A stretch of DNA of 64,000 nt, taken from contig NZ_JAGSYB010000001.1 of assembly GCF_025685415.1 (NCBI RefSeq), positions 620,001 to 684,000 on the forward strand, in the 5' to 3' direction. The stretch is from Terriglobus aquaticus. GTDB taxonomy: Bacteria > Acidobacteriota > Terriglobia > Terriglobales > Acidobacteriaceae. Positions 14,454-54,301 of this stretch are shown piece after piece (within the stretch, counting starts at the first letter, position 1; every line of letters starts with the position of its first letter). The notes beneath the pieces were generated by a model, which was not told the origin of the DNA, searched no databases, and saw nothing but the letters and a program-made list of their open reading frames with translations. Position numbers and translations under genes: made by a program.

Positions 14454-15098
14454 TCACCTCGATGGTGGTCTGATCATCGATGGCGTAGACCGGCGCAGAT
14501 AAACCACGATGCTGACGAAGTCCGCAAGCTGGCGAGTGAACGCTTCGACTCGCTGCTCCAGTCGGGCGAGCGATGCTTCAATCTGAGACCGCAACAGTGT
14601 CTTCGTGCGGTCCTGGCTGAACTGCGATGCAAGCTCGCCCATAGTCCCCGACGGGTCGGAAAGCAGCATTGCGAGCGCGGAGGCGAAGCCCCGCTTCGAC
14701 CGTGTGCCTTCGAGCAGCAAGACGTAGAAGATCTCGATCTGATACAGGGAATCCTGCCTCCGCGCAAAGAGTTCGCGGCGCTGGTCAATAGCGGTTGCGA
14801 CGACTGGGTTGTCGTGGTGCTCGAAGGGGACATCGGGGCGATTCCGCTTCATCAGGTACTGGTAGACATGGAAGCCCGGACCGAAGGCCTTCAGCGCAGC
14901 TTCCAGGCGCTTGACCGCATACTCCTGCTCGCCCGTGTCCAGGCTCTCGTAGTCCACGCCTTCGACCCTTAGGACCATACCGAGGTCGCCAGTCTTTGTT
15001 AGGAATGTTCGCTCATTCCAGAAGCCGTACAGGTTGATATGGTCGTTCAACGCCGCAGCTTCTCTCCACGGTTTCAGCACTCGATCAATACGGAACAT
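14454..15098 (-). pseudogene. virB4: Truncated virB4/trbE (conjugative ATPase), N-terminal fragment
   Basis: About 215 codons against some 800 for an intact VirB4. The fragment is the N-terminal CagE/TrbE/VirB domain: FRIDRVLKPWREAAALNDH, then GFWNERTFLTKTGDLGMVL, and ARLEQRVEAFTRQLADFVSI. It lacks the Walker A and B ATPase core. Family-like sequence stops near 14510. Past that point another frame reads a short unrelated piece (APVYAIDDQTTIEVIDG), so a deletion has joined virB4 to something else. Its start overlaps the true virB3 stop (TGATG), as in intact operons. Confidence 0.82.
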
Positions 15099-17495: not shown

Positions 17496-18707
17496 ATGAG
17501 GCGAGCACGATATCAGCAAGGAAGTTTGCAGCGCGAGAAGCGGCAACGTTCAGGGGAAACTGTCTGGGTCTTCCGTTGGCGGGAAGTCCAGATGGACGGA
17601 ACCAAGAAGTACCGCAAGGCAGTGATTGGAACCGTCTCGGAATACAAGACGGAGTCCGAAGCGCAGAAGGCGGCCGACGCGCTGCGGCTGGAAGTGAATG
17701 AACAAACACCTCGGCAGATGCTCAAAGCAATCAGCTTCGAAACGCTGGTTGAGCACTACAGGCAACACGAACTACCGGACATACTGAATGGGACCAGGCC
17801 GCTTGGTAGCGAAGCTGGGGATGACGAGCTCCGAAAGTCGTACTCCACTCAGGTCACCTATCAGGGCTACTTGAACAAGTGGATTCTTCCACGGTGGCGA
17901 TCGTATCGGTTGACTGACGTGAAGCCGGTTCAGGTGGAGCAATGGTTGAAGTCTCTGCCGTTGTCCAAGGGATCGAAGGCGAAGGTCAGGAACATCATGA
18001 GCGCTCTTTACAGTCACGGGCAACGATGGGAATGGGTTTCTTCCAATCCGATTCGCCACGTCCGTCAGAGTGCGAAACGTTCCCGAATTCCGACGGTGCT
18101 TTCTCCGGAGCAGATCAAACTGTTCCTGGAAAAGCTCGTTGATCTTCCGAAGACGGCTGTTCTCCTCGGAGCTTCTACCGGCCTTCGGGTCGGTGAGATT
18201 CTCGGGCTGAAGTGGGAGGACGTGGATTTCGAGACTCTCGAACTCCGCGTGACCCGCGATGTCGTCAAGCAGCGGATCGAGCGTTGCAAGACCGAAGCGT
18301 CGCGGAAGCCGGTTCCTATCGGTGCAGAAGTTGCCGAGATCCTGTTCGCGTGGCGTTCGCGCTGCGCATACAACCAGCCGGCGGACTGGGTATTTGCCAG
18401 TCCTGCGAAGAAGGGGAAACAGCCGTACTGGCCGAGCTCGATCTACCGGGTGTATCTGAAGCCCGTGCTTGAGGACGATCTCAAGATCACGGACCCGGTC
18501 GGCTGGCACACGCTACGGCACAGCCTTGGAACCCTGATGAAGGCCAACGGTGAAGATGTGAAGACGATTCAGGAGACTCTTCGCCACGCCAACTTCAAGG
18601 TCACCATGGATGTGTACACGCAGGCTGTGACCGAGGTGAAACGCAGTGCCCACAATCGTGTCGTGAGACAGATTATGGGAGGCGGGACGCATGGGGAAGA
18701 AGAGTAG
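17496..18707 (+). CDS. Tyrosine-type site-specific integrase
   Basis: 403 residues. After an N-terminal AP2-like arm-binding region (FRWREVQMDG) and a SAM-like core-binding domain at about 115-185, the catalytic domain holds Arg in TGLRVGEILGLKW, the HxxR pair in WHTLRHSLGTLM and the nucleophile Tyr in MDVYTQ. A strong AAAGGAG site precedes the ATG. It ends 89 bases before the 3' end of tRNA-Glu, the usual position for an element integrated at a tRNA. I take it as the integrase of the island that fills the left part of the window. Confidence 0.95.
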   Translation: MRRARYQQGSLQREKRQRSGETVWVFRWREVQMDGTKKYRKAVIGTVSEYKTESEAQKAADALRLEVNEQTPRQMLKAISFETLVEHYRQHELPDILNGTRPLGSEAGDDELRKSYSTQVTYQGYLNKWILPRWRSYRLTDVKPVQVEQWLKSLPLSKGSKAKVRNIMSALYSHGQRWEWVSSNPIRHVRQSAKRSRIPTVLSPEQIKLFLEKLVDLPKTAVLLGASTGLRVGEILGLKWEDVDFETLELRVTRDVVKQRIERCKTEASRKPVPIGAEVAEILFAWRSRCAYNQPADWVFASPAKKGKQPYWPSSIYRVYLKPVLEDDLKITDPVGWHTLRHSLGTLMKANGEDVKTIQETLRHANFKVTMDVYTQAVTEVKRSAHNRVVRQIMGGGTHGEEE

Positions 18708-18796
18708 TTCAAGAGGCTCCGGAACCCGGAAATCCTTATTGGACCTTTTTGAACCCATGTTTTTGGGGAGCGAAGCTCGTAAGTGCTTTATTTTGT

Positions 18797-18872
18797 TGGC
18801 GTCCCCGACGGGATTCGAACCCGTGTTACCGCCGTGAAAGGGCGGTGTCCTGGGCCACTGGACGACGGGGAC
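18797..18872 (-). tRNA. tRNA-Glu (anticodon TTC)
   Basis: 76 bases on the minus strand with a 7-bp acceptor stem (GTCCCCG/CGGGGAC), anticodon loop CTTTCAC, T-loop GGTTCGAATCC and an encoded CCA. Its 3' end faces the integrase, so the attachment site is probably in its T-arm/acceptor portion. I did not find the matching second copy by reading the left part of the window. Confidence 0.95.
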
Positions 18873-19014
18873 GCACGCCAGGCACAAAGCCACTTCGTCT
18901 AAGCTACCTGCCTTCAGACTCTCTGTCAAAGGCAATGGTTTTGCTGGCAGGAAAGTGCCAGGCACGGAATCGGTGGGTTGCAGCAGCAAAGAGAGCGTGC
19001 CACACTGGAGAGGC

Positions 19015-19103
19015 GCCGGGATGGCGGAACTGGCAGACGCAGCGGACTCAAAATCCGCCGACCCTTGCGGTCGTGGGGGTTCGACCCCCCCTCCCGGCAC
19101 CAA
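19015..19103 (+). tRNA. tRNA-Leu (anticodon CAA)
   Basis: Acceptor GCCGGGA/TCCCGGC, anticodon loop CTCAAAA, a long variable arm typical of class II tRNAs, T-loop GGTTCGACC, and an encoded CCA. Read opposite to tRNA-Glu, 142 bases away. Confidence 0.95.
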
Positions 19104-19157
19104 CAGCACTAAATCCAACGTCCTCTTATTAATCACGGAATCGTGGCAAGGCAAGAG

Positions 19158-19273
19158 CCCCAGGCTCCCTATCTGTCGGCAACCCAGCCGACACGTCTCC
19201 CGTGCTGAAGTGATCGATTCCCCCTGTAGTCATCAGACCTCTTCAGCACGGGATGACCAAGGCCTGGGAGCCG
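19158..19273 (+). ncRNA. Candidate structured RNA (nested inverted repeats)
   Basis: Three stems can be drawn. A 6-bp hairpin (gtcggc, loop aaccca, gccgac) lies at 19175-19192. A 12-bp perfect stem (cccgtgctgaag at 19199-19210 with cttcagcacggg at 19241-19252) has a 30-base loop. An outer stem can form in two mutually exclusive ways: ggctccc (19163-19169) with gggagcc (19266-19272), or cccaggc (19159-19165) with gcctggg (19262-19268). Together they make a three-way junction. It sits just after tRNA-Leu. No known family is matched by eye, and the strand is uncertain because the stems are symmetric. Confidence 0.45.
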
Positions 19274-19337
19274 AGGGTCTACGTGCGAGAGGGAGTATAG
19301 GCGAGCCAAGCTGAAGCTCAGCTTAAGAGTGAAAGAC

Positions 19338-19384
19338 TACAGCATTCGCATCAGATCCATTCGCATCAGATCGGAAATGCTGTA
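19338..19384. repeat. Inverted repeat enclosing a 15-base tandem duplication
   Basis: The arms tacagcatt (19338-19346) and aatgctgta (19376-19384) are perfect complements. Between and partly within them the unit attcgcatcagatc occurs twice at a 15-base period (19344-19357, 19359-19372). It could be an operator, a transcribed hairpin or a slippage product. Confidence 0.5.
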
Positions 19385-19911
19385 CCGGAAGTCGCCCACA
19401 GATTTCGTGAGGACAGGGAACTGCAGATCCTACGCGGGTCTTTGTCGTGTGGTGTGGTCCTCATCCGTCTGCGGGCCTCTTCGGTGTCTTCTCTACTCGG
19501 GAGAAAGCTCTAGAAGCTGTAGAGGCTGTTCGCGGGCGGCCATGGACCGGCGTCCCGCACGACATGGATTCGCCTATTACGAAGAGGCGACGCTCGATCT
19601 CTAGCGACGACTGGCAGTCCTGATCCGTGTGCCGTTTTCTGCATATCTACACCTCTGTAGGAAGAGGGACCGCCGGATGCCTCGAGATCTGGCCGCCCTT
19701 GTGCAGCGGGAGTTCATTTGCAGGTTTGCTGCGTGTAACGCAAGCACGCTAAATACATTGTGAAGAGCTCCAGCGAGAGCGGGACAAACATCATTTTGCG
19801 CGTGTTGCGGTTCGCTGTGGAGTTGCACTGCATTTGCGCTCCACATTGACTCCTGCCCTCCTGTGGTCAGTTCTTTACATCGCCGCCTGCGTTGTGAAAC
19901 GCGCGATTACT
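19385..19911. other. Intergenic stretch with no gene seen
   Basis: About 530 bases between the repeat structures and the lyase promoter. Short open frames exist in both directions but none has protein-like content or a ribosome site. Confidence 0.5.
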
Positions 19912-51432: not shown

Positions 51433-52794
51433 TTGCAATTGGCAGTAAAGCAGAAAGCCGGTCGCTTGCCGGTTGTAGCGGCATGTGTCGCGTCCACTAT
51501 CGCCTTGGGCGGAGTCCTGGGCTGCGGAAACAGCTATCGTCCCGTCGTCAACGCCATCAATCCCGTTGGTCCGTCCTCGCAGCCTGAGAAGTACGCCCTG
51601 GCGCTGGCCGACCCCGGCAACGGGGGTCTCGGCGTAGCGACCCTCATCGACTTCTCCGGCGACACCGTGGTTGGCACCCTGAATACGGCGCCCGTTCCCA
51701 GCTTTCTCGGCCTCAGCACCGCCAATGAAGGCTACGTTCTGCACCAGAATACGGGTCTCGTCGAGGCGTTCACCGCGTCCCAGATCACGCCTGCGAACCC
51801 TACCTTCATCACGCGCAACGTAACCAGCACCACCCTCCCAGCCGGCTCCGCGCCGCTGACCGCTTTGGCCTTGCCGAACCCAGGCGCCCTGTACATCACC
51901 GAAACTGGAACCAGCCGAGTCGCCGCATTTACTTCCGGCGCTCCGCCGACCATCCGGCAGGAACTGCCCGTCGGCCAGAACCCCACCTATGTCGTTGGCT
52001 CGAACAACTCGCAGCGCGTATTTGTGCTGGCAGCGGGAACGAACCCGGGCGTGAGCGTTGGCACCGCCACCGGCATCGAGAACAATGCGTCGAACGCGGT
52101 CAGCAGCACCATCGCGGTTGGCCGCAATCCTGTGTACGGCGTGGTCAACGTGGATGGCCGGCGCGCGTTTGTCCTCAACAAGGCCGGTGACGCCGCCAGC
52201 GGAACCAGCGGCACGGTCTCAGTCATCAACGTGCAGGGCAATACGCTGGACACCATTCCGCGCATCGTCGTCGGTCCCAACCCGGTTTGGGCAGACGTGG
52301 CGACCAACATCAACGAACTCGCGGTAGTCAATGCCGGAGACGGCGTCAGCGCAGGTTCGCTCACCGTCGTCAACATACCGCTCTGCTCGGCCAGCACCGT
52401 TACGACGACCAACCCCGCCTGCGATGCCACCAATCCAGTCGACGCAGCCGGCTTCGGATCGGTCCTTGCCACCATCCCTGTCGGCATCAATCCCGTAATG
52501 GTCGCCATCCTTCAAGACGCGAACAAGGCCTACGTTGCCAACGCCGGCAACGGCCAGCCCGGAACCAGCACCGTCTCCGTCATCGATCTGCAGCGCCTGG
52601 TGAAAACGGCAGACATTCCCATCGGCGGAACCCTGAACTGGATCTCCGCCACCAGCGGTTCGCCAACTGGCAAGGTCTACGTCACTGCCAGCACCACCCA
52701 GATTGCAACGGTCATCCGCACCGATACCGACGAGGTCTCGGCAACCGTGCCGTTGCAGGGTTACGGCGTAGCCATCAAGGTCACCGCACCGTAA
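51433..52794 (+). CDS. YncE-like beta-propeller lipoprotein
   Basis: 453 residues. The N-terminal signal ends in IALGGVLGCGNSY, a likely lipobox. The remainder consists of repeating seven-bladed propeller units of the YncE/surface-layer type, such as NPVYGVVNVDGRRAFVLN, GTVSVINVQGNTLDTIP and KAYVANAGNGQPGTS. Starts at TTG with GGAG upstream. Function is unknown; such proteins often bind metals or other ligands outside the cell. A terminator follows. Confidence 0.88.
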   Translation: MQLAVKQKAGRLPVVAACVASTIALGGVLGCGNSYRPVVNAINPVGPSSQPEKYALALADPGNGGLGVATLIDFSGDTVVGTLNTAPVPSFLGLSTANEGYVLHQNTGLVEAFTASQITPANPTFITRNVTSTTLPAGSAPLTALALPNPGALYITETGTSRVAAFTSGAPPTIRQELPVGQNPTYVVGSNNSQRVFVLAAGTNPGVSVGTATGIENNASNAVSSTIAVGRNPVYGVVNVDGRRAFVLNKAGDAASGTSGTVSVINVQGNTLDTIPRIVVGPNPVWADVATNINELAVVNAGDGVSAGSLTVVNIPLCSASTVTTTNPACDATNPVDAAGFGSVLATIPVGINPVMVAILQDANKAYVANAGNGQPGTSTVSVIDLQRLVKTADIPIGGTLNWISATSGSPTGKVYVTASTTQIATVIRTDTDEVSATVPLQGYGVAIKVTAP

Positions 52795-52807
52795 GGACTC
52801 GTTAATA

Positions 52808-52848
52808 AGACAAGAAAGGGCTGCGCACCGCGCAGCCCTTTCTTGTCT
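52808..52848. terminator. Strong bidirectional terminator
   Basis: A 19-bp perfect stem (agacaagaaagggctgcgc with its exact complement) has a 3-base loop. It lies between the convergent propeller and anti-sigma genes. The ctttctt and aagaaag flanks give a T-rich end to each transcript. Confidence 0.92.
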
Positions 52849-52870
52849 GATTCGCAGCGCCGCTGGAGTC

Positions 52871-54301
52871 TTACGATTGCTGCCCGACCAGCAGGATCGG
52901 AAGGGTAGGCGTGCTTGACCCGCCGTCATCCTCGATCGTCACGCCAAAGTTCGCGGCCACCAGCCCCTTCGGCAAGGGCGGCAGAACCACGGTGGCATAG
53001 CCGTGCGCATCCGGTTTGAACAATCCTGCCGGCACAGGCTGCCGTCCCTGGCCGACCGGAATCAGCCACAGTTCGTAAGTCTTGTACGGCTGCAGCGTCT
53101 CCAGGTTGCTGCCCTGGAAAACGAGCGTCCCGCGCTCCGGCAGGTACGCCACACGGCCGTTCGGTGTTGGCGCCGCATCCGTCGCCGCAAGCTGAAAGTG
53201 CTGCGTGGAGGCGCTCTGCAGCGTCTGCAGCACCGTCTCGGACCTCGACGCACTCGCTTCTGCTGCCGAAAGGGCTGTCTGCTGTTGCGAAACCTGCTCC
53301 CGCAGGTTGAAGTCGTCTCGCAGGGCAAACACGGCGGCGACCGTCACCGCGGCTGCGAGCGACCAGCCCGCCCAGCCCATCCACCGCGCCACCCCACTCC
53401 CGCGTGGCTCGTCGGCCTCCCGGTCGCGGTATGCACTAAACCCGAAGTTATCCTCCCGGGCCGCCGCAGACGCCACAAATGTGTCCTGAACGCTCTCCAG
53501 CGCTTCCAGCGGATCGGGCCGGCGCGCGGTGTATGGCTCTGGATCGGGTGGCAAATCCGGTTGCACCTTGTGCTTGGTTCCATCTGCCGCAAAATGCTGC
53601 TCGAACATGGTCACCGAGTGCGCCGTGGAACTCGTCGCCATGGAACGAGCCTCGCGCGGGAAGACCTGCGGGTCGGGTGAAAACGTCTGCCGCTCCGCCC
53701 CGGAGAGGCTTGGGTCAGCCGCAAAGCTCGCACCCGATGCAGAGAAGCTGTCACCCGCATGGTCCGGTGAAGCTGCCTGCACCTCCCGCAATCTACGGGC
53801 AGCTGGAGGTTGCGTCTGTGGCTGACTGGGCGTTACAACTTGTTGCTGCCGCGGGAAGGTACGCGTAGGCAGCGGCTTGATCACCGGCCCGGGATACGGC
53901 GAAGGATCGTCGAGCGGATCCGGTGCCATGGTCTCCCTGCGTTGCGGAAGTGCCGGTGCTGGCGTCTTGCGGCTACTTTCTCGGTCGCCGTTTGGCGCAT
54001 CCCGATCCATGCGGAAGGTGTGTGGCTCCGGGATCACACGATCCTGCACCGGAACGTCGACCGGCACCGTACGCCGTTCCCGAGCGACCTGCTTCAGCAG
54101 CCGCTGCCGCGTCAGCGCGGGTGGTGTGTGCTGTTCCGCGCCCATGGCGAACAGCGCCAGGTCACCGCGAATATTCGCCAGCTCCTCGCGCGCGGCGGTG
54201 GACTTCCGCAGCATCGTTTCCACCTGGGTCTGTTCCTCGCCCTCCAGGAGACCCAGGGCGTACAGAACCAAATCTTCGGCTGTAATGGTTGGGTCGATCA
54301 T
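52871..54301 (-). CDS. RskA-type anti-sigma factor
   Basis: 476 residues. The N-terminal anti-sigma domain reads LVLYALGLLEGEEQTQVETM and TPPALTRQRLLKQV. A long, Pro/Gln-rich linker of about 200 residues follows, much longer than in typical RskA, then a membrane helix (WMGWAGWSLAAAVTVAAVFAL) and the RskA-like outer domain (RGTLVFQGSNLETLQPYKTYELWL). It overlaps the sigma gene by 4 bases, which couples their translation. By inference it sequesters the ECF factor at the membrane and releases it on an external signal. Confidence 0.9.
   Translation of the reverse strand: MIDPTITAEDLVLYALGLLEGEEQTQVETMLRKSTAAREELANIRGDLALFAMGAEQHTPPALTRQRLLKQVARERRTVPVDVPVQDRVIPEPHTFRMDRDAPNGDRESSRKTPAPALPQRRETMAPDPLDDPSPYPGPVIKPLPTRTFPRQQQVVTPSQPQTQPPAARRLREVQAASPDHAGDSFSASGASFAADPSLSGAERQTFSPDPQVFPREARSMATSSTAHSVTMFEQHFAADGTKHKVQPDLPPDPEPYTARRPDPLEALESVQDTFVASAAAREDNFGFSAYRDREADEPRGSGVARWMGWAGWSLAAAVTVAAVFALRDDFNLREQVSQQQTALSAAEASASRSETVLQTLQSASTQHFQLAATDAAPTPNGRVAYLPERGTLVFQGSNLETLQPYKTYELWLIPVGQGRQPVPAGLFKPDAHGYATVVLPPLPKGLVAANFGVTIEDDGGSSTPTLPILLVGQQS

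Follow-up and report, generated by a model that had tools for sequence, protein, structure and literature searches.

Three paralogous copies of a conserved structured element in Terriglobus aquaticus: a putative species-restricted small-RNA family

The genome of Terriglobus aquaticus harbours three copies of a short element which have a conservation pattern and a predicted fold in common and of which two are linked to an unclassified gene. One copy lies in the 64,000-nt stretch of DNA analysed here (the window; positions 620,001 to 684,000 of contig NZ_JAGSYB010000001.1), and the other two, referred to as L002 and L003, are found on the main contig. Based on sequence comparison, the element may tentatively be read as a putative species-restricted family of three paralogous small RNAs transcribed from the minus strand, a reading to which we lean at somewhat less than even confidence. 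Its parts are given below, with positions in the window unless stated otherwise.

19190-19328: block common to all three copies (blastn limits), comprising the unit and an upstream promoter-like stretch
19189-19289, minus strand: conserved structured unit, the proposed small RNA of about 97-101 nt, recognised by homology to the two paralogs
19281-19286, minus strand: 5' arm of the outer helix, GCACGT, invariant in three of three copies
19191-19196, minus strand: 3' arm of the outer helix, ACGTGT, invariant in three of three copies
19251-19272, minus strand: second hairpin with an invariant AGGCCT loop segment
19199-19252, minus strand: long hairpin with a perfect 12-bp stem and a variable tip at 19211-19240
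19294-19299, minus strand: TATACT, candidate -10 promoter element upstream of the unit, invariant in three of three copies
19329-19553: flank common to the window and L002 only
Main contig 2208089-2208225: paralog L002, 84% identical to the window copy
Main contig 2176973-2177109: paralog L003, 83% identical to the window copy

According to blastn, the three copies, including that of the window, are 83-84% alike; additional own-genome matches in the copy searches represent the opposite strand of the same places, so that the copy number stays at three. Outside the common block, the extent of shared sequence depends on the pair compared. To the left, L002 and L003 keep matching through a spacer and a gene, whereas the left flank of the window copy matches neither of theirs. 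To the right, the window and L002 match on to 19553 (71% over the whole match) while L003 does not; a small open frame at 19420-19620 on the plus strand overlaps this L002-shared flank, its counterpart in L002 holding a stop. The window copy has kept the unit without spacer or linked gene and stands alone beside a tRNA-Leu gene. The preliminary description of this region had named a match to a transposon end among the findings that would speak against it. A transposon end or MITE needs near-identical dispersed copies with defined ends, and copies that are 71-84% alike over unequal extents do not support such an origin. As a separate observation, 15 bp (CATTCGCATCAGATC) are perfectly duplicated in tandem at 19343-19372; the aligned L002 flank lacks this duplication.

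On the minus strand, the unit can be folded in silico into a three-way junction. Its outer helix consists of six pairs between 19281-19286 and 19191-19196, which are kept in three of three copies, and encloses the second hairpin and the long hairpin. The GGATC/GATCC stem of the second hairpin is intact in both paralogs, two of its pairs being broken in the window copy. In the long hairpin, all 24 columns of the 12-bp stem arms are invariant among the three copies, compared with only 11 of 30 in the tip; in the rest of the unit, 42 of 47 columns preceding the tip and 20 of 22 following it are invariant. Invariance extends into the stretch upstream of the unit on the minus strand (30 of 41 columns, TATACT included) and ends in the outermost upstream alignment columns (0 of 12). 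Length differences among the copies inside the unit amount to 1-3 nt, which argues against coding. Within the junction, two CCC runs compete for one GGG: in the minimum-energy folds of L002 and L003, the CCC run near the 5' end pairs with the GGG closing the long hairpin, whereas in that of the window copy the long hairpin retains its own CCC. This ambiguity is conserved among the copies, and the choice between the two CCC runs is the sole register alternative that copy comparison of the predicted folds supports.

Between L002 and L003, identity over aligned columns is 88% in the unit, 74% in the spacer, 65% in the gene and 40% in the right flank, with 68% in the upstream promoter-like stretch (36 of 53 columns, including ten gap columns; 34 of 41 in the three-copy alignment). 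Judged from these alignments, the unit is more strictly conserved than the sequence around it, the coding neighbour included. Together with the unchanged arms in the gene-less window copy, this points to a function that resides in the unit. Compensatory changes, which had been suggested as a check, do not rise above shuffles with only three sequences, a number that gives the test little power: two pairs show double changes, 56 of 500 shuffles score as high and the covariation term is unfavourable (+1.34). Of the same number of shuffles, 47 reached the real count of paired cells, 229 that of further pair types and 77 the covariation score, most pairs never varying among the three copies and therefore carrying no covariation signal. 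Paired cells make up 93.0% in the predicted structure, which was derived from these very sequences, versus 31.0-37.2% if the partners are slid. In the variable tip, pairing is weak on either strand, as the real value is reached by fractions of 0.069 (window), 0.080 (L002) and 0.227 (L003) of 1000 shuffles on the minus strand and by 0.453, 0.048 and 0.224, respectively, on the plus strand.

This anatomy differs from the one initially proposed for 19158-19273, namely a three-way junction on the plus-strand letters with a 12-bp and a 6-bp hairpin inside an outer stem able to pair in two exclusive registers. All eight arms quoted for it are present exactly where they were described:

19159-19165 and 19163-19169: outer-stem 5' arms cccaggc and ggctccc
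19262-19268 and 19266-19272: outer-stem 3' arms gcctggg and gggagcc
19174-19179 and 19188-19193: small-hairpin arms tgtcgg and ccgaca
19199-19210 and 19241-19252: 12-bp hairpin arms cccgtgctgaag and cttcagcacggg
19159-19169 and 19174-19193: outer-stem 5' half and small hairpin (7 bp), almost entirely left of the conserved block

The small hairpin thus exists, albeit with seven pairs by folding instead of the six claimed. The conserved block begins only at 19190 and leaves out both the outer stem's 5' half (19159-19169) and the small hairpin's 5' arm (19174-19179), which are situated further left. A complement to the outer stem as long as that of the real flank, whose longest is 7 nt, is common by chance: when the 50-nt flank adjoining the block was shuffled 2000 times, 7 nt or longer arose in 406 cases. 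Among natural 50-mers of the window, 56 of 1278 have one, and the longest such complements in the left flanks of the paralogs are 5 and 4 nt. The competing outer stems are accordingly lost on comparison, and the switch between the two named registers finds no support, since its 5' half is unconserved, the registers are missing in both paralogs and the conserved three-way junction uses other helices, with the outer helix GCACGU/ACGUGU and the second hairpin at 19251-19272, probably on the other (minus) strand. Conserved mutually exclusive structures, as would mark a riboswitch, were not found for these registers. Total fold energy with the real left flank is matched by only 8 of 600 shuffles, so the flank of the window copy is better paired than chance usually gives. 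More generally, flanking complementarity can mimic a 'switch', and paralog comparison removes it.

What does stand is a conserved and repeated structured element, not the architecture proposed in the preliminary description. Also borne out were that a tRNA precedes the region, that the region is devoid of a recognised gene (although mechanical ORFs cross it) and that it is unlike known RNAs, none of 4227 Rfam models reaching its threshold over 19158-19273; the sole sub-threshold match listed over the unit, up to E 5, is to the microRNA model mir-2114 on the minus strand with E 4.2. The 116 nt of 19158-19273 have fold z values of -6.9 (plus strand) and -6.3 (minus strand) versus dinucleotide shuffles, the lowest among the 1,103 sampled segments of this length in the window. 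This ranking sets a stretch placed by hand against a 58-base grid and so favours the former; the grid stretch that overlaps it, at 19141, reaches only -4.3 and -4.2. The second-lowest value in the sampled window (-6.9) belongs to 52781-52896. Convergent ORFs enclose this long hairpin, which is flanked by runs of A and of T and resembles an ordinary bidirectional terminator.

The strand of the unit is not settled by folding. Fold z values on the minus strand are -4.65 (window, 19190-19289), -4.85 (L002) and -4.16 (L003), compared with -2.94, -4.75 and -5.05 on the plus strand, so that in L002 and L003 the plus strand is on a par with the minus strand. The minus strand is favoured, on the one hand, because the common block extends well past the unit only on its minus-strand 5' side, where the invariant TATACT is located, and, on the other hand, because a gene follows on that strand in L002 as well as in L003. 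A consensus scan of 18700-19700 for sigma-70-type promoters found none, nor was a terminator-like site found at the unit. The 15-mer around TATACT, with at most three mismatches, occurs five times in the window versus 3.37 expected and is hence not rarer than chance.

In the neighbourhood of the window copy, two tRNA genes and an integrase gene are located:

19015-19102, plus strand: tRNA-Leu (ARAGORN)
18797-18872, minus strand: tRNA-Glu (ARAGORN)
17496-18707, plus strand: integrase of the tyrosine-recombinase type (Pfam Phage_integrase)

The integrase gene ends directly beside the 3' end of tRNA-Glu, and its region resembles one end of an integrated element that would extend to the left and would therefore not include the RNA unit. 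Left of the integrase, the gene at 14454-15098, which has no Pfam family, is reminiscent of a conjugation ATPase.

Both paralogs, in turn, are accompanied by an unclassified gene on the minus strand, about 160 nt downstream of the unit. The genes and their presumed starts are as follows:

L006:8474-8926, minus strand: linked gene
L005:8320-8814, minus strand: linked gene

They comprise about 150-165 codons, and their products are paralogs that are 54% identical in this genome. Over 149 codons with 79 identical residues, differences by codon position amount to 47, 43 and 78, and the excess at third positions identifies the gene as coding. Unit, spacer and gene form one block that is 72% identical between L002 and L003, and the spacer includes a 40-base stretch with 90% identity which is present in these two places only, apart from one weak 21-base match (E 0.59). 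Neither protein was assigned to a family by Pfam (E up to 1) or PADLOC, nor was the one of L006 by NCBIfam. Among 398 family genomes, two matched the linked protein, the own genome and one weak case with three internal stops, which was judged to be chance from the ORFs there; no match was found in viral contigs, plasmids or phages. By these searches, the orphan protein is as restricted in distribution as the unit. Near one of the linked genes, the small ORFs L005:6768-7133 (plus) and L005:8032-8310 (minus), the latter without match in Pfam and NCBIfam, have a common stretch 'DYDVSFLPWLGFD' near their ends, and one of the two adjoins a response-regulator gene. At L005:7607-8086 (plus), a response-regulator protein was identified by Pfam; it also gave a weak PADLOC match to SduA (E 1.3e-5), which probably arises through the receiver domain.

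Outside this genome, no conserved stems were recovered, although related genomes had been proposed as the place to look for them. RNA model R1 under strict filters found only the own copies in 398 family genomes (397 others), as did model R2 under strict filters in 396 phylum genomes (395 others) and under laxer filters in 40 relatives at E up to 1; R2, built from these same sequences, matches the own genome at 639189-639289 on the minus strand. In the searches of 398 and 396 genomes, 7 or 10 first-look candidates per genome were scored, among the matches listed, so diverged copies may be missed; the genome sets of these searches and of the DNA comparison that follows overlap, and records very close to this genome may be missing from the searches. 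Among 61 relatives compared at the DNA level (E up to 0.01), the own genome and one other (G023) matched; in the latter, about 31 bases (E 0.005) without such a hairpin around them were judged a chance match. The exact stem pattern occurs in none of the genome contigs and none of the viral contigs searched. When R1 was applied to 14 contigs that contain a shorter pattern, six matches had an E of 1 or lower; the strongest of them, which spans 22 positions at the pattern and reaches 18 bits (E 0.014), was taken as chance. Plasmids and phages gave no copies by blastn. Applied up to E 5 to 29 loci around tRNA-Glu/tRNA-Leu matches (28 from others of the same genus, one own), R1 found none. tRNA-Leu(caa) was detected by ARAGORN in 12 of these 29 loci. 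On comparison of twelve of the 29 with the window by blastn (E 1e-3), nothing 3' of tRNA-Leu matched, L027 and L028 having little or no sequence there. Among the genomes searched, the family therefore looks species-restricted, bearing in mind that diverged homologs may be lost to the filters.

According to the favoured small-RNA reading, window 19190-19328 would be one of three paralogous structured-RNA genes transcribed leftwards, on the minus strand, where we infer both transcription and strand. With the TATACT box just upstream, transcription would start close to the outer helix and yield a product of about 97 nt, in which GCACGU/ACGUGU would form the outer helix and enclose two hairpins, one of the GGAUC type with an AGGCCU loop, the other long, its 12-bp stem invariant and its tip variable. 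This product may be a multicopy small RNA that acts in trans, or the RNA partner of a protein, and the recognised part would be the invariant sequence of stem and second hairpin more than any particular tip. Two copies lie upstream of the unclassified gene and were duplicated together with it, the window copy standing alone beside tRNA-Leu. Several homologous copies in one genome, as expected for a paralogous family of trans-acting sRNAs, are indeed present (three).

The close association with the orphan gene also suggests a cis-acting 5' leader, i.e. an attenuator or regulatory UTR of the gene of about 150 codons, the window copy being an orphaned leader whose gene was lost. Position and strand of this coding gene in both paralogs, the continuous block with unit and spacer and the well-conserved, nearly confined spacer stretch all speak for it. 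However, a 5' UTR position is possible in L002 and L003 but not in the window copy, which keeps stem arms and outer helix invariant despite lacking spacer and gene, and the distance to the start codon is long, with a spacer that may carry a promoter of its own. We regard a leader as unlikely, if still worth consideration. Less probable again is a site acting at the DNA level, either as long inverted half-sites bound by a protein or as a hairpin extruded in single-stranded DNA during recombination, replication or at a transposition end. Perfectly identical arms without compensatory changes, folding on both strands and dispersal of the copies would fit such a site, but the surroundings of the paralogs showed no recognisable transposase, recombinase or relaxase (ten ORFs by Pfam, others as translations) and the integrase close to the window copy is probably part of the element beyond tRNA-Glu. 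Moreover, the copies are old and unequal in extent instead of precise insertions, and the element includes the invariant loop of the second hairpin as well as the promoter-like stretch. Readings as retron, integron attC or group II intron were dropped on general knowledge, no partner enzyme being recognised.

That the flanks are shared pairwise with different copies, and that covariation is not shown, would also be expected if an ancient segmental duplication, involving a promoter and its regulator site, had left this segment behind; the fold would then be a by-product and have no RNA function. Relaxed decay, though, would not leave 24 of 24 arm bases next to 11 of 30 tip columns, nor a unit more conserved than neighbouring coding sequence, which makes a mere remnant distinctly improbable. 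The most far-reaching idea, a lineage-restricted new RNA class in which the two invariant CCC runs and the one GGG would give a branch-migrating three-way junction and the invariant palindromic AGGCCU loops could pair with each other to form kissing homo- or heterodimers, working with or independently of the adjacent orphan protein, is highly speculative and is given very little credence.

Among known systems, the small-RNA reading is best compared with multicopy 'sibling' sRNAs. In Bacteroides thetaiotaomicron, the FopS family (PMC11697453) consists of 14 RNAs, each about 65-70 nt long, whose transcripts have been mapped and whose targets are known. Like FopS, the present family would comprise several short paralogous, mostly intergenic RNA genes per genome, the copies agreeing in one part of their sequence and diverging in another. 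In contrast to FopS with its 14 members, transcripts and targets, there are three copies here, known from sequence alone, and their conserved part is mainly paired instead of being an open seed. More than one related small RNA per genome is likewise described for the sibling sRNAs of a different organism, Neisseria (PMC5362039, PMC9973317). The element resembles Rfam families as a small structured intergenic RNA, while none of 4227 models reaches its threshold over the unit. In the open-access literature searched, no paralogous small-RNA family is apparent for this bacterial group; one catalogue comprises 104 candidate structured RNAs (PMC2864571).

If transcribed, the three copies would form a new family of paralogous small RNAs, two of which are linked to an orphan protein. 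As they appear confined to one species, the family would be small and tractable for the study of RNA genes that are either young or quickly lost.
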